From positions 661,001 through 725,000 of the forward strand of contig NZ_CP014335.1 in the NCBI RefSeq assembly GCF_001610955.1: a stretch of DNA of 64,000 nt. Reading direction: 5' to 3'. Source of the DNA: Geobacillus thermoleovorans (GTDB lineage Bacteria; Bacillota; Bacilli; Bacillales; Anoxybacillaceae). Both the position numbers and the translations under genes were made by a program. Positions within the stretch are counted from its first letter, which is position 1; every line of letters starts with the position of its first letter. The notes under the pieces are model-generated. The model did no database searches, was not told the DNA's origin, and saw only the letters and a list, made by a program, of their open reading frames with translations. This document shows, in pieces, positions 49,812 through 59,993 of this stretch.

Positions 49812-50114
49812 TCAAGAAAAATGCCCAAGCTGCCGGAGCGCTTCTTCGCTCATTCGCTCCGGCGTCCATGGCGGGTTCCATGTCACTTGGACGCGCACGT
49901 CACGGATGCCGTCAATGTGCTCAAGCGCCCGTTTGACGCCGCCGGCGATCGAGTCGTGAAGCGGGCAGCCGGGGGTCGTGAGCGTCATCAGGACATTGAT
50001 ATGCCCATCTTCGATTTTTAAGTCATAAATCAACCCTAAATCGACGACGTTAATGCCGAGCTCCGGATCAAGGACCGTTTTCAGCTGTTGAATGGCAAGT
50101 TCGCGGACATCCAT
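49812..50114 (-). CDS. DUF59/SufT-like metal-sulfur cluster protein
   Basis: 100 residues, MIP18/DUF59 fold with conserved DPELGINVVDLGLIYD and the cysteine motif TTPGCPLHD. Members help assemble or repair iron-sulfur clusters. ATG at 50114 after GAGGAGG. Last gene of the run of four starting with DUF2249, so it may repair NO-damaged clusters, which is inference. Confidence 0.85.
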   Translation of the reverse strand: MDVRELAIQQLKTVLDPELGINVVDLGLIYDLKIEDGHINVLMTLTTPGCPLHDSIAGGVKRALEHIDGIRDVRVQVTWNPPWTPERMSEEALRQLGHFS

Positions 50115-50136
50115 CGTTCTTTTCCTCCTCATTCGC

Positions 50137-51387
50137 TTATTTTCGGAAGACCGTTAAAATCGTTCCGGCAAAGGCAACGCTTAATCCAGCCAACAGCACT
50201 TGAGTGATGGCGAACAGCGGCACGCTCGCGACAGCAAGCGCAACGGCCGCCAGCGCGAGGGCGATGAGCCATAGGCGGCATTGGACGGTGACGGCTCGCT
50301 CATTCATCATTTGTTTTAACGTCGGCACGTTTTGTTGGCCGACTTTTTCGCTGTAGCGATGCGTCCACCATAAAAACGGCACGATTTTGAACAAATAGCC
50401 GACGATGCTGAAGAGAATCCAGCCGACAATGAATAGATAAACAATGATGCCAAGCAGCCGTCCGCTGCCGACGACGATGGCGACAAAGGCGGCAACGTGC
50501 AGTCCAAGACCGATGACGATGGCCGAAAGCGAAAAGCGGAACGGGCGGTCAAGCGTTTTTTTCATCCGCTTTTGCAAAATGGCGCGGATATGCCAGGCGA
50601 AAACAATGAATCCGCTCATGAGCAAGGCTGCACCGGCTGCAAGCCATGCGTGGCTTCGCAAGAATAAGCTGGCGAACGCCACCGCAATCCCGCTGATGTA
50701 CAGCGCATAGACGTAACGCGCCGGCCGCAGCGAAAAGCCGTGGGCGAGCGAGAACATCGGCGCCATTTTGTACGAAAAGCCTATGATGAGCAGTGTGAAC
50801 CAGCCGCACAGCCCGAACAGCACATGCAAGCCGAACACCGTTTCATGACTGTTGGCGCCTGTGGCGGCGAAAAAGTGAAAGGCAAGCAGCCCTCCGGCGG
50901 CGCCCGTCAGCAGCAAAAACAACAAGGAAGTCGCGACAAACAGCGTCATGATCGTTTTGTTTTTTTGTTGTTTTAATGTCATCGCCATTTGCCAGACAAA
51001 CAGCACGATGCCGAACAGCAGAAGCAAGCCAGGGAGAAACGCCTGGTTTGGCGTAAACGCTAAACTGGCGGCAAAGGCGACGATGCCGAGAGCGGTGATC
51101 GCAAACTGCCAAAAACCGAGCCGCTCGCTCCAAATCGGCGTCAAAAAGGCGACCGGAACGAGCTGGTACATCGCCCCCATGGCCGTCATCAATGCAAAGC
51201 CAAGCAACGCCAGGTGGGCCGCCGCCCACACGAACGGCAGCCGGAACGCGCCGCTGCTAAGTGAGGGAATCGCTCCAAGCAACATAAGCTGCGACGCGGC
51301 GAACGCCAACACGGCGAACATGATAAACGAGAACGGAAGACGGACGTCTGTTTCCGTCCCCGTGCGAGTAGGAAACACGTTGCTCAT
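50137..51387 (-). CDS. 12-TM membrane protein, NnrS/haem-copper-like
   Basis: 416 residues, about 12 predicted helices. Histidines lie at helix ends (FVWAAAHLALLG, FGLHVLFGLCGW, WWTHRYSEK), which recalls the metal-binding NnrS or oxidase subunit I families, but full ligand sets were not confirmed by eye. Overlaps the upstream DUF2249 gene by 4 bp. Sits in an NO-responsive-looking operon, so a role in NO metabolism is plausible but not shown. Confidence 0.75.
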   Translation of the reverse strand: MSNVFPTRTGTETDVRLPFSFIMFAVLAFAASQLMLLGAIPSLSSGAFRLPFVWAAAHLALLGFALMTAMGAMYQLVPVAFLTPIWSERLGFWQFAITALGIVAFAASLAFTPNQAFLPGLLLLFGIVLFVWQMAMTLKQQKNKTIMTLFVATSLLFLLLTGAAGGLLAFHFFAATGANSHETVFGLHVLFGLCGWFTLLIIGFSYKMAPMFSLAHGFSLRPARYVYALYISGIAVAFASLFLRSHAWLAAGAALLMSGFIVFAWHIRAILQKRMKKTLDRPFRFSLSAIVIGLGLHVAAFVAIVVGSGRLLGIIVYLFIVGWILFSIVGYLFKIVPFLWWTHRYSEKVGQQNVPTLKQMMNERAVTVQCRLWLIALALAAVALAVASVPLFAITQVLLAGLSVAFAGTILTVFRK

Positions 51388-51593
51388 CCTTTCGTAATGC
51401 GGATTTCAAAACTGCCGTCTTCGCGTGCGACCGTCTCGTGCCGGTAGCCAAGCTCGTCAAGCTGCTCGTACAAAAACATCGGGCGGCGATCGTTAATGAT
51501 CGTCAGCGTCTCCCCAGGATTCAGCTTAGCGAGGGCAGCGAGCGTCCGCATCATTGGCTGCGGCGGCTCGAGTCCGCGGTTATCGAGGATCAT
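51384..51593 (-). CDS. DUF2249 protein
   Basis: 69 residues with the TusA-like DUF2249 fold (LDNRGLEPPQPMMRTLAAL, GETLTIINDRRPMFLYEQL). No cysteine thiol of TusA is present. Found beside NO-reductase genes in many bacteria, function unknown. Second of the run after the 77-residue DUF2249 gene. Confidence 0.85.
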   Translation of the reverse strand: MILDNRGLEPPQPMMRTLAALAKLNPGETLTIINDRRPMFLYEQLDELGYRHETVAREDGSFEIRITKG

Positions 51594-51596
51594 CGG

Positions 51597-51830
51597 TCAT
51601 CCCCCCTGTTTGACAAACGTTACTCTCCAATGTTTTTTCTCGATTTGTTCGGCCTCGTACGTAAATCCTTTCGCTTTCATAATCGGAAACAACGGCAGCG
51701 GCTTGAACGGGGCGTGTAAAATGAACGTATCGCCCGGCTGCAGCGGCTTGATGGCGTTCATAATTTTTTCAAACGGCTCACGTTTCTGCCGCAAATCTTC
51801 GCGCACATCGAGTTCAATCGTCACACCCAT
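51597..51830 (-). CDS. DUF2249 protein
   Basis: 77 residues: VTIELDVREDLRQKREPF, then GDTFILHAPFKPLPLFPIM. ATG at 51830 after AAGGAGGG. The upstream ATGs lie in the promoter. First gene of the minus-strand operon (two DUF2249, the 12-TM protein and DUF59). Confidence 0.85.
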   Translation of the reverse strand: MGVTIELDVREDLRQKREPFEKIMNAIKPLQPGDTFILHAPFKPLPLFPIMKAKGFTYEAEQIEKKHWRVTFVKQGG

Positions 51831-51855: not shown

Positions 51856-51898
51856 ATGATAATCATTTTCACTGTGGAATGTTGTGATATAGCTCACA
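51856..51898 (-). promoter_or_regulatory. Crp/Fnr-type site and -10 box of the DUF2249 operon
   Basis: TGTGATATAGCTCACA (51883-51898) is a perfect TGTGA-N6-TCACA site. On the minus strand a TATCAT box spans 51861-51856, giving a start near 51849. The site centre (51890.5) is then at -41.5, as for a class II activator. Confidence 0.85.
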
Positions 51899-52067
51899 TC
51901 TTTCGGCCGAAACATGACATATTCCACTTTGGAAAAAAGGTTTCGTTTTCGTTTGAAAGGGCGGAATAGCATGTTCCAGAAAGATGGGCTTGCCGAAATG
52001 TTTGAAAGGAAACCCCATCAGCTCCATTGCGCATCCCGACCGGTGCCGGACGATGGGGAAAAAGGAG

Positions 52068-52760
52068 TTAGAAAAAGATTTCTTGTTCGAGCCCTTCGCG
52101 GTCAATCAAATAAAAGCCGTGTTCGTCGACGTCAATCAGCCCTTTCCGTTTCAGTTGGCTCAACGTGCGGCTCACCGTTTCCCGGGCGGTGCCGATCATG
52201 TTGGCCAGCTCGCGGTTTGTCACATGGGCGGTGAGACGGTGCCACTTCCCTTGTTTGACGGCGTTCGTGCGCGTCAGCCGCAACAAAAGCAACACGATTT
52301 GTTCGTACGTATTATGGAGCACTTGCGCTTCGAGCCGGTTTTGCAAGTCGACGATTTTTTCGCCCATGACGCGAAACAGTTTTATGCAAAGTTCAGGGCT
52401 CGCCATCAGCACTTGTTCGAAATCGTGGATCGGGATCGCGATCAATGTCGCTTCCTCGACCACTTCGGCGTGGGCCGGATAGGTGCCTTTTAAGAAAAAG
52501 CCGGCATGCGGAAACATTTCTCCCGTCTGCAAAATCGAAACGATTTGTTCTTTCCCGCTGAAGTCCGTTTTATAAATTTTTACCGTGCCGGAATGAATGA
52601 AATAGACTCGCTCGAGCGGGTCGCCTTGCATAAAGACAAACGTCCGCGGCTTGTAAACGCGCACGTGGGAAATGGCAACCAGCGAATCAAGCTCGTAATC
52701 GGACAGTTCACGAAACAACGGAACAGCTTTTAAGCGGTCTTTCATCCAATGGTTCGCCAT
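52068..52760 (-). CDS. Crp/Fnr-family transcription regulator
   Basis: 230 residues: cyclic-nucleotide-type beta-barrel (15-125), long dimer helix, and winged helix TNRELANMIGTARETVSRTL that recognises TGTGA-type sites. Only one cysteine (in SPELCIKLF), so no Fnr iron-sulfur cluster. It more likely senses NO or redox in the manner of Dnr/NnrR regulators. ATG after AAAGGAGAG. Its own promoter carries a matching site at -41.5. Divergent from norB. Confidence 0.9.
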   Translation of the reverse strand: MANHWMKDRLKAVPLFRELSDYELDSLVAISHVRVYKPRTFVFMQGDPLERVYFIHSGTVKIYKTDFSGKEQIVSILQTGEMFPHAGFFLKGTYPAHAEVVEEATLIAIPIHDFEQVLMASPELCIKLFRVMGEKIVDLQNRLEAQVLHNTYEQIVLLLLRLTRTNAVKQGKWHRLTAHVTNRELANMIGTARETVSRTLSQLKRKGLIDVDEHGFYLIDREGLEQEIFF

Positions 52761-52865
52761 GGCGTTCTCTCCTTTGGAAATGTGACAAAAGTGTGGCGGC
52801 TGTCAACAGAGCATCGATGCTTTTCTCTTTTTGAACATCCGCGCCGTTTGGCCTTTTCTGCCTTC

Positions 52866-52959
52866 ATTGTATACATTCTCACGCCATAAAGCTGTGATAT
52901 AAATCATAACGGACATTTGCCCCGGCTCACAAACCGCCGAACGATCAGCGCGCTACAAT
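52866..52959. promoter_or_regulatory. Divergent regulator/norB control region
   Basis: TGTGATATAAATCATA (52893-52908) is centred exactly at -41.5 for the regulator promoter, whose -10 box TACAAT is read on the minus strand at 52871-52866. For norB, TACAAT (52954-52959) implies a start near 52965-52966. A weaker half-conserved site TTTGCCCCGGCTCACA (52916-52931) sits near -42 and the strong site near -65. The two site centres are 23 bp apart, about two helical turns. Confidence 0.75.
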
Positions 52960-52992
52960 GGGGGCGAACAAACGAGAAGGAGGTTGGCTCAT

Positions 52993-55356
52993 ATGGAAGT
53001 TCATCGATCCGTTCGCCCCAACATGCGGCCGGGGCGGCAAACGACCAACAGTTTTCTCAAATCGATTCTCATTTTCACTATTGTGATCAGCTTTACCGTC
53101 CTGCTTGTCGGCGGATATTGGATTTTTAAAGAAATGGCGCCGAGGCCGAAGGAAGTGCGCAGTGAAGACGGCCAAGTGTTGATGACGAAAGAAACGATCA
53201 TCGGCGGGCAGGCCGTCTTCCAAAAATACGGGCTGATGGATTACGGAACCGTGCTTGGGCATGGGTCGTATATGGGGCCGGACTATACGGCGGAAGCGTT
53301 GAAAATTTATACGGAAGGCATGCAAGATTACAAAGCAAAAGAGCGGTATCACAAACCGTTTGCCGATTTAACCGCCGATGAGAAAACGATCATCCGCGAA
53401 CAAGTCATCAAGGAAATGCGAAAAAATCGCTACAACCCGGTTACGGATGTTCTCGTCCTGACAGATGCGCAAGTATACGGGTTGGAAAAAGTGCGCGACT
53501 ATTACCGCGACGTGTTCACCAATGGCGATGGTTGGGGATTGAAAAAAGGATTGATCAAAGAAAGCGACATGCCAAAATCAGGCCGTGCTTGGGTCGCGGA
53601 CGGCGACCAAATCAAGCAAATTGCCGACTTTTTCTTCTGGACCGCTTGGCTGTCAAGCACGCCAAGACTTGGCGACCACATCACCTATACGAACAACTGG
53701 CCGTACTATGAGGACGCCGGCAATACGATGTCGTTTTCCGCGGTATGGTGGAGCGGCGCGAGCGTCACGATTTTGATTTTGTTCATCGGGATCATTTTGT
53801 ATGTGTTCCACCGCTATCAGTTAAGCATGCAAGAAGCGTATGCAGAAGGGAAGTTTCCAGTCATCGATTTGCGGCGGCAGCCGCTGACTCCGTCGCAAGT
53901 GAAAGCGGGCAAATATTTCGTCGTTGTATCGGCGCTCTTTTTCGTCCAAACGATGTTCGGGGCGCTGCTCGCCCACTACTATACGGAACCGGACAGCTTC
54001 TTTGGCATCAAATGGATCCATGACCTATTGCCGTTTAACATCGCCAAAGGGTATCATTTGCAGCTGGCGATTTTTTGGATTGCCACCGCTTGGCTTGGTA
54101 TGGGGATTTTCATCGCCCCGCTTGTCGGCGGGCAAGAGCCGAAAAAGCAAGGGCTGCTCGTCGATCTGCTCTTTTGGGCGCTTGTCGTCCTTGTCGCCGG
54201 CAGCATGATCGGCCAATGGCTCGGCGTCAACGGCTATTTAGGAAACGAATGGTTCCTGTTTGGCCACCAAGGTTGGGAATACATTGAGCTAGGCCGCGTT
54301 TGGCAAATCATTTTAGTCGTGGGCATGCTGCTTTGGCTGGTCATCGTCTTCCGCGGCGTCAAACGCGGGCTGAAGCAAGAAAGCGACAAAGGCGGGCTCA
54401 TCCACTTGCTGTTTTATTCGGCCATCGCCGTTCCGTTCTTTTACATCTTCGCGTTCTTTATCGAGCCGGATACGAACTTTACGATGGCTGACTTCTGGCG
54501 CTGGTGGATCATCCACTTGTGGGTGGAAGGCATTTTTGAAGTGTTCGCCGTTGTTGTCATCGGGTTCTTGCTCGTTCAATTGCGGCTCGTAACGAAAAAA
54601 TCGACGGTCCGGGCTCTCTATTTTCAATTTACGATTTTACTAGGGAGCGGTGTGATCGGCATCGGCCACCACTATTACTACAACGGTTCACCGGAAATTT
54701 GGATCGCCCTTGGCGCGGTGTTCTCGGCGCTCGAAGTGATTCCGCTCACGCTCCTTATTTTGGAAGCGTATGAGCAGTACAAAATGATGCGCGACGGCGG
54801 GGTCAACTTCCCGTACAAGGCCACATTCTGGTTCTTGATTTCAACCGCCATTTGGAATTTGGTCGGCGCTGGCGTGTTCGGTTTCCTCATCAACTTGCCG
54901 GCGGTCAGCTACTTTGAACACGGGCAGTTTTTAACGCCGACCCACGGCCATGCGGCGATGATGGGCGTGTATGGCATGTTTGCGATCGCCGTGCTCCTTT
55001 ACTCGCTGCGCAACATTGTCAAACCAGAGGCGTGGAATGACAAATGGCTGAAGTTCTCATGCTGGATGTTAAACATTGGATTGGCCGGCATGATCGCCAT
55101 CACGCTGCTTCCGGTCGGGATTTTGCAAATTAAGGAAGCGTTTGTCAATGGCTATTGGGCGTCGCGTTCACCTTCGTTCTTACAACAAGATATCGTCCAA
55201 AACTTGCTGCTTGTCCGCTTTGTTCCGGATACGATCTTTTTGATCGGCGTCGTCGCGTTGCTTGTTTTCGCCATCAAGGTGCTGTTCCATTTGCGCAAGC
55301 CAACGCACGGCGAAGGGGAAGAGCTGCCGGTGGCGAATTTGGCGGAGGAAGAATAA
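52993..55356 (+). CDS. norB: Quinol-dependent nitric oxide reductase
   Basis: 787 residues, one polypeptide with an N-terminal cytochrome-c-like periplasmic domain lacking haem c, and about 14 membrane helices. The histidine-rich catalytic core shows NIAKGYHLQLAIFW, RWWIIHLWVEG, GIGHHYYYNG and THGHAAMMGVYG. Reduces NO to N2O with menaquinol, as known for the G. stearothermophilus enzyme. ATG at 52993 is 9 bases after AAGGAGG. A TTG nine bases earlier abuts it. No nitrite reductase gene is in the window, so NO detoxification is possible. Confidence 0.96.
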   Translation: MEVHRSVRPNMRPGRQTTNSFLKSILIFTIVISFTVLLVGGYWIFKEMAPRPKEVRSEDGQVLMTKETIIGGQAVFQKYGLMDYGTVLGHGSYMGPDYTAEALKIYTEGMQDYKAKERYHKPFADLTADEKTIIREQVIKEMRKNRYNPVTDVLVLTDAQVYGLEKVRDYYRDVFTNGDGWGLKKGLIKESDMPKSGRAWVADGDQIKQIADFFFWTAWLSSTPRLGDHITYTNNWPYYEDAGNTMSFSAVWWSGASVTILILFIGIILYVFHRYQLSMQEAYAEGKFPVIDLRRQPLTPSQVKAGKYFVVVSALFFVQTMFGALLAHYYTEPDSFFGIKWIHDLLPFNIAKGYHLQLAIFWIATAWLGMGIFIAPLVGGQEPKKQGLLVDLLFWALVVLVAGSMIGQWLGVNGYLGNEWFLFGHQGWEYIELGRVWQIILVVGMLLWLVIVFRGVKRGLKQESDKGGLIHLLFYSAIAVPFFYIFAFFIEPDTNFTMADFWRWWIIHLWVEGIFEVFAVVVIGFLLVQLRLVTKKSTVRALYFQFTILLGSGVIGIGHHYYYNGSPEIWIALGAVFSALEVIPLTLLILEAYEQYKMMRDGGVNFPYKATFWFLISTAIWNLVGAGVFGFLINLPAVSYFEHGQFLTPTHGHAAMMGVYGMFAIAVLLYSLRNIVKPEAWNDKWLKFSCWMLNIGLAGMIAITLLPVGILQIKEAFVNGYWASRSPSFLQQDIVQNLLLVRFVPDTIFLIGVVALLVFAIKVLFHLRKPTHGEGEELPVANLAEEE

Positions 55357-55495
55357 CCAAAACGGGGCTGACCCAAAACGCGAATGCGTTTTGGGATTAG
55401 CCCGTTTTTACACGAAATATAGAAGAGAATCGTTCGTTTTCTGGCAGAATAGAGTCACCATAAACCACTATCACCGAAAAAGGAGCGATTCTTTT

Positions 55496-55699
55496 ATGAC
55501 ACATCATCATATTTTTGAAGAGTGTACCGTGGATCACCTCACGTTGCCAAGCGATATCATTCCATTGGATCATATGGCTCATGTAGTTTACGAAATCGCC
55601 AAGCGCATTCCGATGGAGACGTTTCTTCCTTACTATAAAAGGCGGCCACACCTAAGAAAGGTAGGGAGGGATGCTCTCTCCTTGCTTATGGTGCCTTAA
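55496..55699 (+). pseudogene. Transposase N-terminal fragment
   Basis: 67 residues beginning MTHHHIFEECTVDHLTLP and continuing IPLDHMAHVVYEIAKRIPME, like the start of IS1182/IS1634-type transposases. It is broken after about residue 49, where the frame runs into unrelated sequence and stops. ATG preceded by AAAAGGAGCG. Not functional. Confidence 0.75.
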
Positions 55700-56537
55700 T
55701 AAGACGAATGCTGGAAATTGCCGCTTCTTGTTCAATCGAACGCCTAGAAAGAAGATCTAAAATCCGTTCGTGCTTTTCCATGTTTTGTTCTATTTTCTTA
55801 ACGATTTCATTTGTTTCAAGCACTGCTTGTTGGACGAAAACAAACTCTTGCTTCGTGACCATATTGGCTTTGACATGATCTAATTCTTTCATTAGGTTGT
55901 TCTTTACGTCCTCAAGCTCCTGTTTGGTAGCCATGTTGGCTTTGATGTCCTCAAGCTCCTGCTTGGTAGCCATGTTGGCTTTGATGTCCTCAAGCTCCTG
56001 CTTGGTAGCCATGTTGGCTTTGATGTCTTCAAGCTCCTGCTTGGTAGCCATGTTGGCTTTGATGTCTTCAAGCTCCTGCTTGGTAGCCATGTTGGCTTTG
56101 ATGTCTTCAAGCTCCTGCTTGGTAGCCATGTTGGCTTTGATGTCCTCAAGCTCCTGTTTGGTAGCCATGTTGGCTTTGATGTCTTCAAGTTCTTGCTTGG
56201 TAGCCATGTTGGCTTTGATGTCTTCAAGTTCTTGCTTGGTAGCCATGTTGGCTTTAATGTCTTCGATCTCTTTTGTGAAACTATGCTTCACTTCTTCGAG
56301 TTCTTGTTTAGTGGCCATGTTGGTTCTAATATCTTCGAACTCTTTTGTGAAACTATGCTTCACTTCTTCAAGCTCTTGTTTCGTTGCCATGTTGGCTTTA
56401 ATATCCTCAAGCTCTGTTGAGAAGTTTTGCTTCACTTCTTCGAGCTCCTGTTTCGTTGCCATGTTTGTTTTGACGTCGCTTACTTCATGTTCGATAATTT
56501 GGAGCTTGTCCAAAATTTGTTTCAATATCTCTTCCAA
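55686..56537 (-). CDS. Coiled-coil protein built from 13-residue tandem repeats
   Basis: 283 residues, no membrane segment. Starts at TTG 56537, 7 bases after GGGAGG. An N-terminal heptad-like part (MEEILKQILDKLQIIEHEV) is followed by degenerate MATKQELEEV units, then nine near-identical units of the form MATKQELEDIKAN, then a C-terminal coil (VLETNEIVKKIEQNMEKHERILDLL). A long parallel coiled coil is predicted. Function unknown. It lies wholly inside the ends of a decayed insertion sequence. Copy number of the repeat may vary between strains. Confidence 0.85.
   Translation of the reverse strand: MEEILKQILDKLQIIEHEVSDVKTNMATKQELEEVKQNFSTELEDIKANMATKQELEEVKHSFTKEFEDIRTNMATKQELEEVKHSFTKEIEDIKANMATKQELEDIKANMATKQELEDIKANMATKQELEDIKANMATKQELEDIKANMATKQELEDIKANMATKQELEDIKANMATKQELEDIKANMATKQELEDIKANMATKQELEDVKNNLMKELDHVKANMVTKQEFVFVQQAVLETNEIVKKIEQNMEKHERILDLLSRRSIEQEAAISSIRLIKAP
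55917..56268. repeat. Nine tandem 39-bp repeats
   Basis: The unit contains TTGGTAGCCATGTTGGCTTT and repeats every 39 bp with one to three differences (TCC/TCT, CTCCTG/TTCTTG). It encodes 13 residues per unit on the minus strand, so copy changes keep the frame. Recent unequal exchange or slippage is likely. Confidence 0.9.
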
Positions 56538-56992
56538 GGAAAATCCTCCCTTCTAATAAGATATATAGCAGCCCTGGAAAAGCGAGTGATGATGAATCGC
56601 TCCTTTCTTTTGAGGACTGGGGAAACGAGCGTGTAGAGTAAGTGGTTGAGGAAAGGGATGGGATTGTAGCGCAGAACAAATGAGGACAATCGTTCCCCAT
56701 TCATATTATAAATGATTCGTAGAAATTTGAAAATAACGTTTTGTGTCATTGTCGCTTTGTATCCGTCCAGGAAAAGGAGTGCGTTTTAGCCCGTACGGTC
56801 ATGTTAATCCCGGCAGCGACATTGTTTTTAAGAAAATCGAACTTCCTTTCTTTAATAATAAGGAGAAACAAGGGATTTAATCGGAATCGTTCATGATCAA
56901 TGTACGATTTAAAAAAGAAAGAGCTGGCTCCAAAAGTCCACTTGTTAGTGGATTTTTGGGTCAGCCCCCCTTTCATTTGTGAACGTTTTCAA

Positions 56993-57160
56993 TCACTTGT
57001 GGCATTTGTCCGGTGTGGTGTGTTCGGTTTCCTTTTGCTTGTCATGGCATGGAAAGCAGTACAACGTCTCTGTTTCTCGGCTGACGACGCCGTTTAAAAA
57101 CCCATGCAGACAATGGATCGGCTTGCCGCATTGCGCGCAAAAGCCAACAAGCTCTTCCAA
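56993..57160 (-). CDS. Small zinc-ribbon-like protein
   Basis: 55 residues starting at TTG 57160 behind AAAGGAG. Two CxxC pairs, FCAQCGK and YCFPCHD, are separated by HCLHGFLNGVV, with further Cys/His at the C-terminus (DKCHK). It looks like a compact metal-binding domain with no other part. It lies just outside the IS remnant and upstream of a DUF2249 gene in opposite orientation. Family not recognised. Confidence 0.65.
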   Translation of the reverse strand: MEELVGFCAQCGKPIHCLHGFLNGVVSRETETLYCFPCHDKQKETEHTTPDKCHK

Positions 57161-57206
57161 CCGCCATTTCTCCTTTCATGGGGATTGAACATGTTCACCT
57201 TCGGGC

Positions 57207-57249
57207 TGTGACGCTCGTCACTACCCCCCAAGGTTCAAGCGGTTATGAT
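57207..57249 (+). promoter_or_regulatory. Crp/Fnr-type site and -10 box of the third DUF2249 gene
   Basis: TGTGACGCTCGTCACT (57207-57222) centred at 57214.5. TATGAT (57244-57249) predicts a start at about 57256, placing the site at -41.5. A second possible -10 (TATAAT, 57256-57261) would give a less usual spacing. Confidence 0.8.
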
Positions 57250-57289
57250 AAAGTATATAATTCATTATACTACAAAGGAGGCCAATGTT

Positions 57290-57523
57290 ATGAACCAATT
57301 TGCCGCCAAAATCCACGCCCCGGACTATCCGCCGCGCGACCGCCATCCGGCAATTTTTCGGCTGTTTGACAGTTTGAAGCCGGGGGAAGTGATGGAGCTG
57401 ACGAATGACCATGACCCGCGTCCGCTGCAATACCAATTCATGATGGAGCGTCCGGATCAGTTTACATGGGAGTACTTAGAGGAAGGGCCGGACGTATGGC
57501 GGGTGGCCATCGGCAAAAAATAA
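57290..57523 (+). CDS. DUF2249 protein
   Basis: 77 residues (PPRDRHPAIFRLFDSLKPGE, LTNDHDPRPLQYQFMMERP). Third DUF2249 gene in 6 kb. The three proteins are diverged from each other. ATG after AAAGGAGG. Single gene closed by a strong terminator. Confidence 0.88.
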   Translation: MNQFAAKIHAPDYPPRDRHPAIFRLFDSLKPGEVMELTNDHDPRPLQYQFMMERPDQFTWEYLEEGPDVWRVAIGKK

Positions 57524-57540
57524 ATCATCCGCTCCATTGG

Positions 57541-57573
57541 GATTTCCGTCTGCAGGCGGAAATCTTTTTTTTT
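57541..57573 (+). terminator. Terminator
   Basis: GATTTCCG (57541-57548) pairs with CGGAAATC (57557-57564), followed by nine T residues. Confidence 0.9.
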
Positions 57574-57628
57574 CGCCGGTTGGTATGGTACGGTAAAAAC
57601 AAACGATGGATGTCCGGAAAGGGGAAGC

Positions 57629-58210
57629 ATGATGAAACAAACGATTGCCGGAGCGGTGCTCGCCGGCGGCCAGTCGCGCCGGTTTGGGCGGCCGAAGGCG
57701 TTTGCGTTGCACGAAGGAGCTCCGTTTTTCACTTGGTCCGTCGCGGCGCTGCGATCCGTCGCCGATGAATTGTACATCGTCAGCCACCCGTCGCTTATCG
57801 ATGAATTCCGCCGGCAAACGGACATCCCGGTGCTGCTCGATGTGGAGCGCTGCCGCGGCTGTGGGCCGCTGGCCGGCCTTTACACCGTCATGGAACAGAG
57901 CCGAGCCGACTGGGTGTTCGTCCTGCCGTGCGACATGCCGTACATGCGGCGGGAAGTGGCGGAGCGGCTTGCTTCCTATATCGATCCGACGTTTGACGCC
58001 ATCGTTCCACTCCATGGCGGCCGCCCAGAGCCATTGGTCGCTCTATACCATCGTCGGCTTCGTTCCGTGATCGCCGAGCTGCTTGACGCCGGCGAACGGC
58101 GGATGATCTCGCTTATTGACGGCGCCCGCGTCCGCTATGTTGACGCCCAACAGCTTGCCGCGGATGAAACCGTATGGCGCAATGTCAATACGGAGGGAGA
58201 GTACCGGTGA
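57629..58210 (+). CDS. mobA: Molybdenum cofactor guanylyltransferase
   Basis: 193 residues. Adds GMP to molybdopterin. Nucleotidyltransferase motif GAVLAGGQSRRFGRPKA, FVLPCDMPY with the metal-binding aspartate, and C-terminal HGGRPEPLVALYH. ATG at 57629 or 57632 (AAAGGGGAAGC upstream). No other cofactor gene adjoins it. It sits within the NO/anaerobic block, where molybdoenzymes such as nitrate reductase are used. Confidence 0.9.
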   Translation: MMKQTIAGAVLAGGQSRRFGRPKAFALHEGAPFFTWSVAALRSVADELYIVSHPSLIDEFRRQTDIPVLLDVERCRGCGPLAGLYTVMEQSRADWVFVLPCDMPYMRREVAERLASYIDPTFDAIVPLHGGRPEPLVALYHRRLRSVIAELLDAGERRMISLIDGARVRYVDAQQLAADETVWRNVNTEGEYR

Positions 58211-58479
58211 AGGGGGAATTGTGGCCGAAGGAGACACAGCATATACTTTTTTTCAATCAGAAGAGCCATCCTTGACCACGAAATGGTTCTTTTTCCCGGC
58301 TTTTCACCATAAAATGCACTTGATGCAGGAAGACGCTCATGATACGCAAGTGAAAAATGATTTCGCCTGTACAATAACTGTCAATAAAAGGTCAAGTGCA
58401 CCTTTTGATGATGACCTTGAATTTTATGAAACGGCAACAGTGCGAAAAAAAAGAACCGTACGGCCTCGGCTCTTTTGCG

Positions 58480-58698
58480 TCATTGGACTGGGGGTTGATT
58501 TTGGTCCATTTCCTTCGCCAGGTCCGCTACTTCGGCGACGGTCAGCCCCGTTCGTTTCGCGACTTCGTGAATAGGCAGAACGTCAAGCAAGTTTTTCGCG
58601 ATTTCGATGGCTTTTTGTTTTTCGGCTTGTTTGACCGCCTTCTCTTTTTCCTGTTCTAGATCTTCTACGCGCAAACGAAAGACTTTATTCATTTTCAT
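58480..58698 (-). CDS. Short protein resembling the C-terminal tail of Rpn-type nuclease proteins
   Basis: 72 residues: a charged helix (EDLEQEKEKAVKQAEKQKAIE) then IAKNLLDVLPIHEVAKRTGLTVAEVADL, a helix-turn-helix-like tail seen at the end of Rpn/PD-(D/E)XK recombination-promoting proteins. The nuclease part is absent. A good AAGGAG site precedes the ATG, and a minus-strand hairpin with eight T residues (58446-58473) follows, so it may be expressed as a short form. The gap 58,211-58,479 holds no convincing gene. Confidence 0.6.
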   Translation of the reverse strand: MKMNKVFRLRVEDLEQEKEKAVKQAEKQKAIEIAKNLLDVLPIHEVAKRTGLTVAEVADLAKEMDQNQPPVQ

Positions 58699-58810
58699 CC
58701 ACTCCTTTACTTTTTGGGCGTATGGCGGGTCAATATATTATACCGCCTGTTCAGATGGCTGTCATCTTCGCCCATGGTACGATCGCCCTCTGTTGTGGCT
58801 TTGCTGTGGA

Positions 58811-58853
58811 TGTGATCGATATCACATAACGCGCCTGAATGTTGCGGTACAAT
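58811..58853 (+). promoter_or_regulatory. Crp/Fnr-type site and -10 box of the radical SAM gene
   Basis: TGTGATCGATATCACA (58811-58826) is a perfect TGTGA-N6-TCACA dyad. TACAAT (58848-58853) gives a start at about 58860, so the centre at 58818.5 is again at -41.5. The leader would be about 15 bases. Confidence 0.85.
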
Positions 58854-58874: not shown

Positions 58875-59993
58875 ATGCACGATTTCAATAAAAACCCGTT
58901 TATCGTCATTTGGGAGTTGACACGGGCGTGCCAACTCAAGTGCCTTCATTGCCGCGCTGAAGCGCAATACCATCGCGATCCGCGCGAGTTGACGTTTGAG
59001 GAAGGGAAAAAACTGATCGATGAGATTTACGAGATGGATCAGCCGATGCTCGTCTTTACGGGCGGCGATCCGCTCATGCGTCCGGATGTGTACGATTTAG
59101 CGAAATATGCGATCGATAAAGGGCTGCGCGTGTCAATGACGCCAAGCGCGACGCCGAACGTGACGAAAGAGGCGATCCGCAAAGCAAAAGAGGTCGGCCT
59201 GTCGCGCTGGGCGTTCAGCCTTGACGGGCCGAACGCCGAGATTCACGACCATTTCCGCGGCGTGAGCGGCTCGTTTGATTTGACGATCCGTGCGATTCAC
59301 TACTTGCATGAGCTCGATATCCCTGTGCAAATCAACACCGTCATTTCGCGATACAACGTTCATGTGCTTGACGAGATGGCGGCGCTGGTGGAGAAGCTGA
59401 AATGCGTCCTGTGGAGCGTCTTTTTCCTTGTGCCGACAGGCAGGGGGAAGGAGGAGGACATGATTTCCCCCGTCGAGCATGAGCGGGTGTTCCGCTGGCT
59501 GTATGAGACGAGCAAGCGCGTTCCGTTTGACATCAAAACGACGGCCGGCCAGCATTACCGCCGCGTCGTGCTGCAGGCGAAAATGCGTGAAGGAAAAACG
59601 GCAAAAGGCGGCATCCGTTACGAAGACGTGTTGAACAAAGGCTTAACCGGGCAAGTCGACGGGCTTGGCCGCGCGCCCAAAGGGGTAAATGACGGCAACG
59701 GCTTTGTTTTTATCTCCCATATCGGCCACGTCTACCCGAGCGGGCTGCTGCCGGTGAAGGCAGGGAACGTCCGGGAAACGCCGCTGGCGGACATTTACCG
59801 ACACTCGCCGATTTTCCAAGACTTGCGCAATCCGGACAAATACAAAGGAAAATGCGGCGTCTGCGAGTTCCGATATGTGTGCGGCGGCTCACGCTCCCGG
59901 GCGTACGCGGTGACGGGAGACTATTTGGAAAGCGAGCCGTATTGTGTTTACATTCCAAAGGCGCTGCGGACAAAAGAGCAAAGCCAACGGTAA
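58875..59993 (+). CDS. Radical SAM/SPASM-domain enzyme (NirJ/AhbD-like)
   Basis: 372 residues. The radical SAM cluster motif CQLKCLHC lies in the first 30 residues, with FTGGDPLMRPD, FSLDGPNAEIHD and a C-terminal SPASM-type cysteine cluster (CGVCEFRYVCGGSRSRAYA...C). Relatives act on haem-type tetrapyrroles (NirJ, AhbD), but several members are unassigned. ATG at 58875 after AAGGAGGG. Placement under the same site as NO-reductase genes suggests a role in anaerobic or NO metabolism. Confidence 0.88.
   Translation: MHDFNKNPFIVIWELTRACQLKCLHCRAEAQYHRDPRELTFEEGKKLIDEIYEMDQPMLVFTGGDPLMRPDVYDLAKYAIDKGLRVSMTPSATPNVTKEAIRKAKEVGLSRWAFSLDGPNAEIHDHFRGVSGSFDLTIRAIHYLHELDIPVQINTVISRYNVHVLDEMAALVEKLKCVLWSVFFLVPTGRGKEEDMISPVEHERVFRWLYETSKRVPFDIKTTAGQHYRRVVLQAKMREGKTAKGGIRYEDVLNKGLTGQVDGLGRAPKGVNDGNGFVFISHIGHVYPSGLLPVKAGNVRETPLADIYRHSPIFQDLRNPDKYKGKCGVCEFRYVCGGSRSRAYAVTGDYLESEPYCVYIPKALRTKEQSQR

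Follow-up and report, generated by a model that had tools for sequence, protein, structure and literature searches.

Among the described systems closest to the locus analyzed here is the Fnr regulon of Bacillus subtilis, in which activator sites have the -41.5 geometry and targets include narK and the nar genes. We analyzed a 64,000-nucleotide stretch of Geobacillus thermoleovorans (contig NZ_CP014335.1, here C1, positions 661001-725000; the window), in which TGTGA-N6-TCACA dyads stand before genes for a Crp/Fnr regulator (REG), a quinol-type nitric oxide (NO) reductase (norB), DUF2249 proteins, a protein with 12 transmembrane segments (12-TM), a DUF59 protein, and a radical SAM protein of family TIGR04053. 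The same sequence is listed as the B. subtilis Fnr consensus in Table 1 of PMC8151001. In Pseudomonas, passages of PMC8139620 place the Fnr-type regulator ANR over DNR, another Fnr-like protein, which turns on NO reductase genes in the presence of NO; a portion of PMC1274295 states that DNR has no Fnr cysteine motif. Thermus has a circuit in which drp expression depends on DnrT, a Crp-like protein, and in strains lacking both Drp proteins expression becomes nitrate-independent (passages of PMC6282519). In Bacillus licheniformis, ‘fnr2’ adjoins qnorB-dnrN, with narK and fnr1 nearby (PMC4719734, in part); this cluster is likened to the window by annotation, and the passages of that paper do not mention the DUF2249, 12-TM or radical SAM partners.

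We consider it likely that the dyads of the window are operators of a Bacillus-type Fnr class II regulon, with REG and an AhbD-like enzyme as partners. The regulon itself is of a known kind, real and recurrent. It shares with that of B. subtilis the consensus box and an Fnr with C-terminal cysteines, which is encoded here, and adds norB, the DUF2249 genes, the 12-TM/DUF59 operon, RIC, molybdenum cofactor genes and TIGR04053, as well as a second Crp/Fnr protein that is free of iron-sulfur (Fe-S) clusters and has its own box. The sites in the window are as follows, with positions counted from its first nucleotide and the gap given in nucleotides from the dyad to a -10-like hexamer.

51883..51898, minus strand: dyad TGTGAGCTATATCACA, promoter of the DUF2249/DUF2249/12-TM/DUF59 operon; no mismatches, gap 21 to TATCAT at 51856-51861; recurs in relatives
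52893..52908, minus strand: dyad TATGATTTATATCACA, REG promoter and upstream norB site; 1 mismatch, gap 21 to TACAAT at 52866-52871
52916..52931, plus strand: proximal norB site TTTGCCCCGGCTCACA; 2 mismatches, gap 22 to TACAAT at 52954-52959
57207..57222, plus strand: dyad TGTGACGCTCGTCACT, promoter of the lone DUF2249 gene; 1 mismatch, gap 21 to TATGAT at 57244-57249
58811..58826, plus strand: dyad TGTGATCGATATCACA, promoter of the radical SAM gene; no mismatches, gap 21 to TACAAT at 58848-58853

An earlier sequence-only reading had reported four near-identical TGTGA-N6-TCACA dyads at 51883, 52893, 57207 and 58811, each centred at -41.5. All four are present, and 21 nt on the gene side separate each from the -10 hexamer that had been paired with it (4/4); their near-identity holds for the half-sites and fails for the central six bases, which vary between sites. 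A TAnnnT hexamer at this gap in four of four would arise by chance with P ~8e-8 (either strand, TAnnnT frequency 0.0084 in the window), or ~4e-6 once 50 possible common gaps are allowed for. At up to two mismatches the window holds 26 dyads against 22.7 expected, which is no excess, and the case therefore rests on the spacing and the genome-wide picture. For the lone DUF2249 gene, this genome leaves the choice of -10 box ambiguous, as a perfect TATAAT at gap 33 competes with TATGAT at gap 21. The earlier reading had passed over the norB pair, formed by the site at 52916 and the dyad 23 bp upstream. This tandem arrangement is kept in all six genomes compared, with a proximal gap of 21 in five and of 22 in the window.

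The genome-wide scan for the dyad that the same reading had proposed returned 10 exact copies in 3.5 Mb against none for a reversed control, and 77 against 29 at up to one mismatch (spacing was examined for 31 of the 77). Six of the ten exact dyads fall inside 19 kb, four of these six outside the window, a clustering matched by 0 of 20000 random placements. Across the ten, gap 21 has six occurrences of TAnnnT and gap 22 has two, compared with a mean of 0.23 and a maximum of 2 at other gaps (nominal P ~9e-8 for the gap-21 excess); no class II -10 was found for the exact dyads at 463331 and 555473. Boxes elsewhere on C1 precede the following genes, for which the names narK, modB and narG were given by eye, beside Pfam matches.

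C1 726180, outside the window: class II box, narK-like MFS gene
C1 729140, outside the window: class II box, modB-like ABC permease gene ahead of moaA
C1 731817, outside the window: class II box, ScdA/RIC repair gene
C1 731861, outside the window: box at gap 22, MCP/moeA side
C1 844987: class II box, YVTN-type beta-propeller lipoprotein gene
C1 1732391: class II box with 1 mismatch, narG-like open reading frame (ORF) of 1231 residues
C1 1739737: class II box at gap 22, hemerythrin gene

The supposed compactness of the regulon is thus not supported, since it reaches narK-, mod/moa-, RIC- and narG-like genes beyond the window. A further dyad, CGTGATGGCCATCACA at L108:5663-5678 (C1:3331662), lies at gap 21 to TATAAT ahead of a gene for a 174-residue membrane protein, a few ORFs past chdC.

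The boxes recur in relatives. Many of the 20 regions compared, though not every one, have them ahead of the same genes, and their centres have diverged. The 71 distinct exact dyads in relatives' loci gave 55 matches at gap 21, while other gaps had a mean of 2.7 and a maximum of 11 (nominal P ~5e-56, the relatives not being independent). We also counted dyads of up to two mismatches at gap 21 or 22 in a set of 106 loci, taking REG at at least 50% identity and the radical SAM gene at at least 75% identity. This set excludes near-copies (L049, L050), genomes without REG (L069-L074), loci with REG and no box of up to one mismatch nearby (L056, L058, L059, L060, L066, L068), those of a box-less radical SAM paralogue (L092, L093, L098, L105-L107), and other own-genome and plasmid loci. 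Sites were found at 40/41 radical SAM promoters, 67/70 of the DrpA-like DUF2249 gene, 57/89 of DUF2249a, 58/92 of REG and 21/35 of norB; a single-shuffle control gave 0/41, 1/70, 0/89, 1/92 and 0/35, respectively. The loci are related, so these counts are not independent, and the REG and radical SAM fractions are favourable because of how loci were selected. Half-sites specific to a promoter tend to persist: TATGA at REG (55/60 REG sites, up to three mismatches), TTTGC or NATGA at norB, TCACT at DUF2249c, and the full consensus at the radical SAM gene. At one locus, L067, REG is placed after the radical SAM gene, which carries the box. Spacing and recurrence across relatives strongly support the class II Crp/Fnr regulon that had been suggested.

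The genes concerned, with the neighbouring mobA-like gene, are listed below. The first operon holds a second DUF2249 gene (b) that had been missed.

49812..50132, minus strand: DUF59/MIP18-type metal-sulfur cluster assembly protein (PF01883); 58% identity to a Thermus plasmid gene
50137..51387, minus strand: 12-TM protein, predicted heme-copper oxidase subunit I fold (cbb3/NO reductase-like); COX1 just below cut-off; homologues in Thermus and in haloarchaea
51384..51593, minus strand: DUF2249 protein b (PF10006 at C1:712390-712587); 43% identity to the second DUF2249 domain of the DrpB-like Thermus protein
51597..51830, minus strand: DUF2249 protein a (PF10006); 39% identity to a DUF2249 domain of the DrpB-like Thermus protein (tblastn)
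52068..52760, minus strand: REG, Crp/Fnr regulator; no Fe-S cysteine motif, recognition helix RETVSR, invariant His85
52993..55356, plus strand: quinol-type NO reductase NorB (PF22085, PF00115)
57290..57523, plus strand: DUF2249 protein c, the lone DUF2249 gene (PF10006); 59% identity to the DrpA-like Thermus protein
57629..58210, plus strand: MobA-like molybdenum cofactor guanylyltransferase (PF12804); NCBIfam MobA models below cut-off
58875..59993, plus strand: TIGR04053 radical SAM/SPASM protein, predicted oxygen-independent AhbD-like heme b synthase from its TIGR04053 and AhbD scores and a haloarchaeal homologue

The radical SAM protein belongs to TIGR04053 (529.8 bits, curated cut-off 395), and AhbD is its nearest family with a named function, followed by NirJ2 at 234 bits. 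Haloferax larsenii has at its ahbD position a protein with which it shares 47% identity, and the gene in the window carries the best of the boxes. In H. larsenii and in Halobellus limi, the TIGR04053 gene adjoins a DUF2249 gene and has a norB homologue close by, along with halocyanin or nirK; this layout is that described in passages of PMC5746218 for ahbD of H. volcanii, a likeness of layout. Deletion of the latter gene (HVO_2144) reduced only anaerobic growth (same passages). A search of the PDB with the radical SAM protein gave PqqE as the best match. Of 61 relatives, 40 have a TIGR04053 match above cut-off, and all 61 have the ChdC family PF06778. AhbC exceeds its cut-off in none of the 61; weaker AhbC matches occur in 58, with the same radical SAM genes at their head, and the enzyme would therefore draw coproheme from the coproporphyrin route. 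A second TIGR04053 paralogue, 68-72% identical (L092, L093, L098, L105, L106, L107), has no class II dyad of up to one mismatch in its promoter. According to passages of PMC10965808, the enzyme for the oxygen-independent version of this heme step is unknown. The literature searched did not mention TIGR04053 and, in the titles, abstract starts and passages retrieved with AhbD terms, named no such enzyme for Bacillaceae. We put forward tentatively, and would not quite call probable, a joint reading in which TIGR04053 is an oxygen-independent coproheme decarboxylase of those coproporphyrin-pathway Bacillaceae and Thermus that carry it, replacing H2O2-dependent ChdC under anoxia and wired to Fnr/REG, and in which DUF2249/12-TM/DUF59 form one accessory module common to Bacillaceae, Thermus and, partly, haloarchaea.

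REG has the Crp/Fnr fold minus the Fe-S cysteine motif. The earlier reading was correct that it lacks the Fnr cysteine cluster: its single cysteine, at position 125, is found in 12 of 16 orthologue rows. His85, within FPHxGFF, is present in 16/16 REG rows and absent in Fnr and in the protein at the DnrT position of Thermus, making it a candidate ligand residue. The genome encodes four Crp/Fnr proteins, including two Fnr proteins (C1:728655 and C1:757437), one of them in the same cluster, with a C-terminal CExCPPxxC that we take to be the Bacillus Fnr motif. REG and the cluster's Fnr have in common the recognition helix R-E-x-x-x-R; a portion of PMC1274295 associates an Arg here with TGTGA boxes. 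A box of DNR/NnrR type (TTGAT- or TTGCG-type in the same portion) does not occur at the REG promoter, which reads TATGA-N6-TCACA/T, and the ANR-DNR box TTGAT likewise differs from the TGTGA found here. REG is not specially close to DNR; a PDB search with REG gave many CRP-family matches, of which DNR was not the best, and none of the tests made showed NO sensing by REG.

Boxes also occur where REG does not. Six genomes that lack REG and have an Fnr region were examined (G008, G009, G035, G041, G046, G056). G009 and G035 have between them gap-21 boxes at modB-, RIC-, moaA- and moeA-like genes and at a narG-size ORF of 1230 residues; several class II sites are present in G041, and a single one, at gap 20, in G056. 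The radical SAM gene has its gap-21 box in all three REG-less genomes that carry it (G009, G035, G041). REG is thus not needed to explain the boxes, and, given these genomes and the further Fnr proteins, the idea of a compact regulon with one sensor was rejected. Of 61 genomes, counting the own one, 39 have a REG orthologue (at least 43% identity), and all but one of the 39 have an uninterrupted Fnr-like match (38-100% identity; cysteine motifs were checked in the own genome). Likewise, 49 of the 50 genomes behind the 12-TM loci, where REG is not in view in all, list such a match; the sole exception in both counts is G022/G062 (identical coordinates). REG looks like a second, co-regulated reader.

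In the mechanism that we propose, an Fnr dimer would, upon anoxia, bind TGTGA-N6-TCACA centred at -41.5 and recruit RNA polymerase, and REG probably also binds the same boxes. The targets turned on would serve nitrate and nitrite transport and reduction, NO reduction via the norB tandem sites, molybdenum cofactor supply and Fe-S repair (ScdA/RIC); they would further include the DrpA/DrpB-related DUF2249 proteins with their heme-copper-oxidase-like 12-TM partner, and the AhbD-like radical SAM enzyme, which most likely would convert coproheme to heme b without oxygen. Since the REG promoter carries a box, Fnr, REG itself or both would raise the level of REG. Its wiring may be a cascade from Fnr to a second activator, like ANR to DNR, or that of a concentration-driven activator, like Thermus DnrT.

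Several observations weigh against this explanation. In an unselected count, a REG-facing class II box of up to one mismatch occurs in 7 of 19 relatives' REG regions, among which L056 stops 124 bp before REG. The Fnr regions of two of the six REG-less genomes (G008, G046) hold no dyad at up to one mismatch. REG and Fnr co-occur in nearly all genomes examined, so that the reader of each box is not assignable from sequence. In Parageobacillus thermantarcticus G022/G062 (L117), the cluster's fnr is broken into two fragments, both interrupted (C43:83172-83839), which counts against a pure Fnr reading. As for the enzyme, its AhbD score of 381.5 bits across the full TIGR04545 model lies under the cut-off of 500; only 2 of 14 control genomes exceed the TIGR04053 cut-off; and 21 of the 61 relatives, including Fnr-bearing G008, G046 and G056, lack it above cut-off, so it cannot be a general solution across the anaerobes of this order.

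It is possible, if doubtful, that TIGR04053 acts on a different target, such as a peptide, or on heme destined for a special cofactor, and does not make heme b. It is a separate NCBIfam family from AhbD, with no function in its name and a score under the AhbD cut-off; the copy in Deinococcus ficus lies beside siroheme and sulfate genes, not norB; and several Bacillaceae have the second, box-less copy while 21 relatives miss the gene. Yet AhbD is by far the closest family of named function, well ahead of NirJ2, and in Haloferax larsenii a member of the family takes the place of ahbD, next to halocyanin and not far from norB.

A different account concerns REG, which might resemble Thermus DnrT in sensing nothing and acting by its concentration, with the DUF2249 proteins supplying the nitrate or NO input. 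The Thermus thermophilus plasmid (L109) carries the same set around nar, nir and a nor-like gene, with identities to the window proteins of 59% for DUF2249c (residues 2-77), 29% for 12-TM, 58% for DUF59 and 49% for the TIGR04053 radical SAM protein; DnrT, DrpA and DrpB were assigned there by layout from PMC6282519, the record giving family names only. The partners correspond to the dnr/drp nitrate-respiration circuit of Thermus and, partly, to haloarchaeal nirK/norB clusters. Within the regulon, the lone DUF2249 protein would fit DrpA, being single-domain, 59% identical, preceded by a gap-21 box and placed in a nitrate/NO cluster. The Crp-like protein at the DnrT position, which has no Fe-S cluster, is the best plasmid-borne relative of REG. 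However, this identity is low, at 33%, and its recognition helix reads P-E where REG has R-E, so that orthology with a shared helix was not found. DrpB is one fused Thermus protein, with an N-terminal DUF1858 and two DUF2249 domains (passages of PMC6282519), whereas the window has two separate short DrpB-like genes and no N-terminal domain. We regard a DnrT-like REG as unlikely on this balance.

REG could instead be a dedicated NO or anaerobic sensor that reads all boxes, leaving other targets to the Fe-S Fnr proteins. Its central position, its RETVSR helix and the characteristic TATGA half of its own promoter box speak for this, as do G022/G062, where REG is intact beside five class II sites and the matches listed include no Fnr other than REG and the fragments. 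Against it, G009 and G035 keep class II boxes at the genes named above without REG, the radical SAM box persists in each REG-less carrier, and the broken fnr may be recent or an error of a draft assembly; we judge this account to be quite improbable. Chance dyads near chance -10 boxes, to which the absence of a window excess at up to two mismatches might point, have next to no probability and were rejected on the gap-21 excess in the own genome (nominal P ~9e-8) and in relatives (5e-56, not independent), and recurrence across genera despite diverged centres also speaks against them.

Returning to the Fnr class II regulon with REG and the AhbD-like enzyme, we counted its genes in the best 80 of 311 loci of the 12-TM family, with 10-kb flanks and on contigs some of which end early. 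DUF59 is present in all 80, DUF2249a and DUF2249b in 79 each, REG in 60, DUF2249c in 59 and norB in 37; 18 of the loci have the radical SAM gene. The AlphaFold model of the 12-TM protein (pLDDT 88.5) has cbb3 oxidase and NO reductase as its best Foldseek matches, and a heme-copper oxidase subunit I fold is accordingly predicted. DUF2249 was rarely mentioned in the literature searched; passages of PMC11218638 report the four DUF2249 genes of Haloferax mediterranei to be activated in denitrifying conditions.

Some sequences encountered in the survey deserve mention in their own right. Loci titled Chryseobacterium and Paenibacillus (L126, L131) bear a Bacillaceae-like module, with 12-TM identities of 49% and 47%, and are probably mislabelled. 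A 2.9-kb ‘Campylobacter jejuni plasmid’ (NZ_CP029056.1, 213-1316) holds a TIGR04053 gene 84% identical to that of the window and looks like misassigned Bacillaceae DNA. In a Geobacillus relative (L104, G010:C5, 1860-10520), about 8.7 kb separate mobA from the radical SAM box, compared with 0.6 kb in the window, and the interval contains a partial mobA copy. Between norB and the lone DUF2249 gene of the window, an ORF on the minus strand (55686-56537) encodes about nine 13-residue repeats; its DNA includes a 39-bp tandem array (55908-56264, 97% matches).

Of what is new in this analysis, the most useful parts are the link to the Thermus and haloarchaeal module and the candidate anaerobic heme enzyme. 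If the joint reading put forward for TIGR04053 is true, heme for the nitrate and NO reductases would be made exactly when oxygen is absent. The window gives the open question of this heme step a named candidate with an anaerobic-type promoter, in species carrying the gene. The DUF2249 proteins would gain a predicted regulon and operon partners, and the Thermus and haloarchaeal circuits, which have been studied apart, would be linked to the Bacillaceae.

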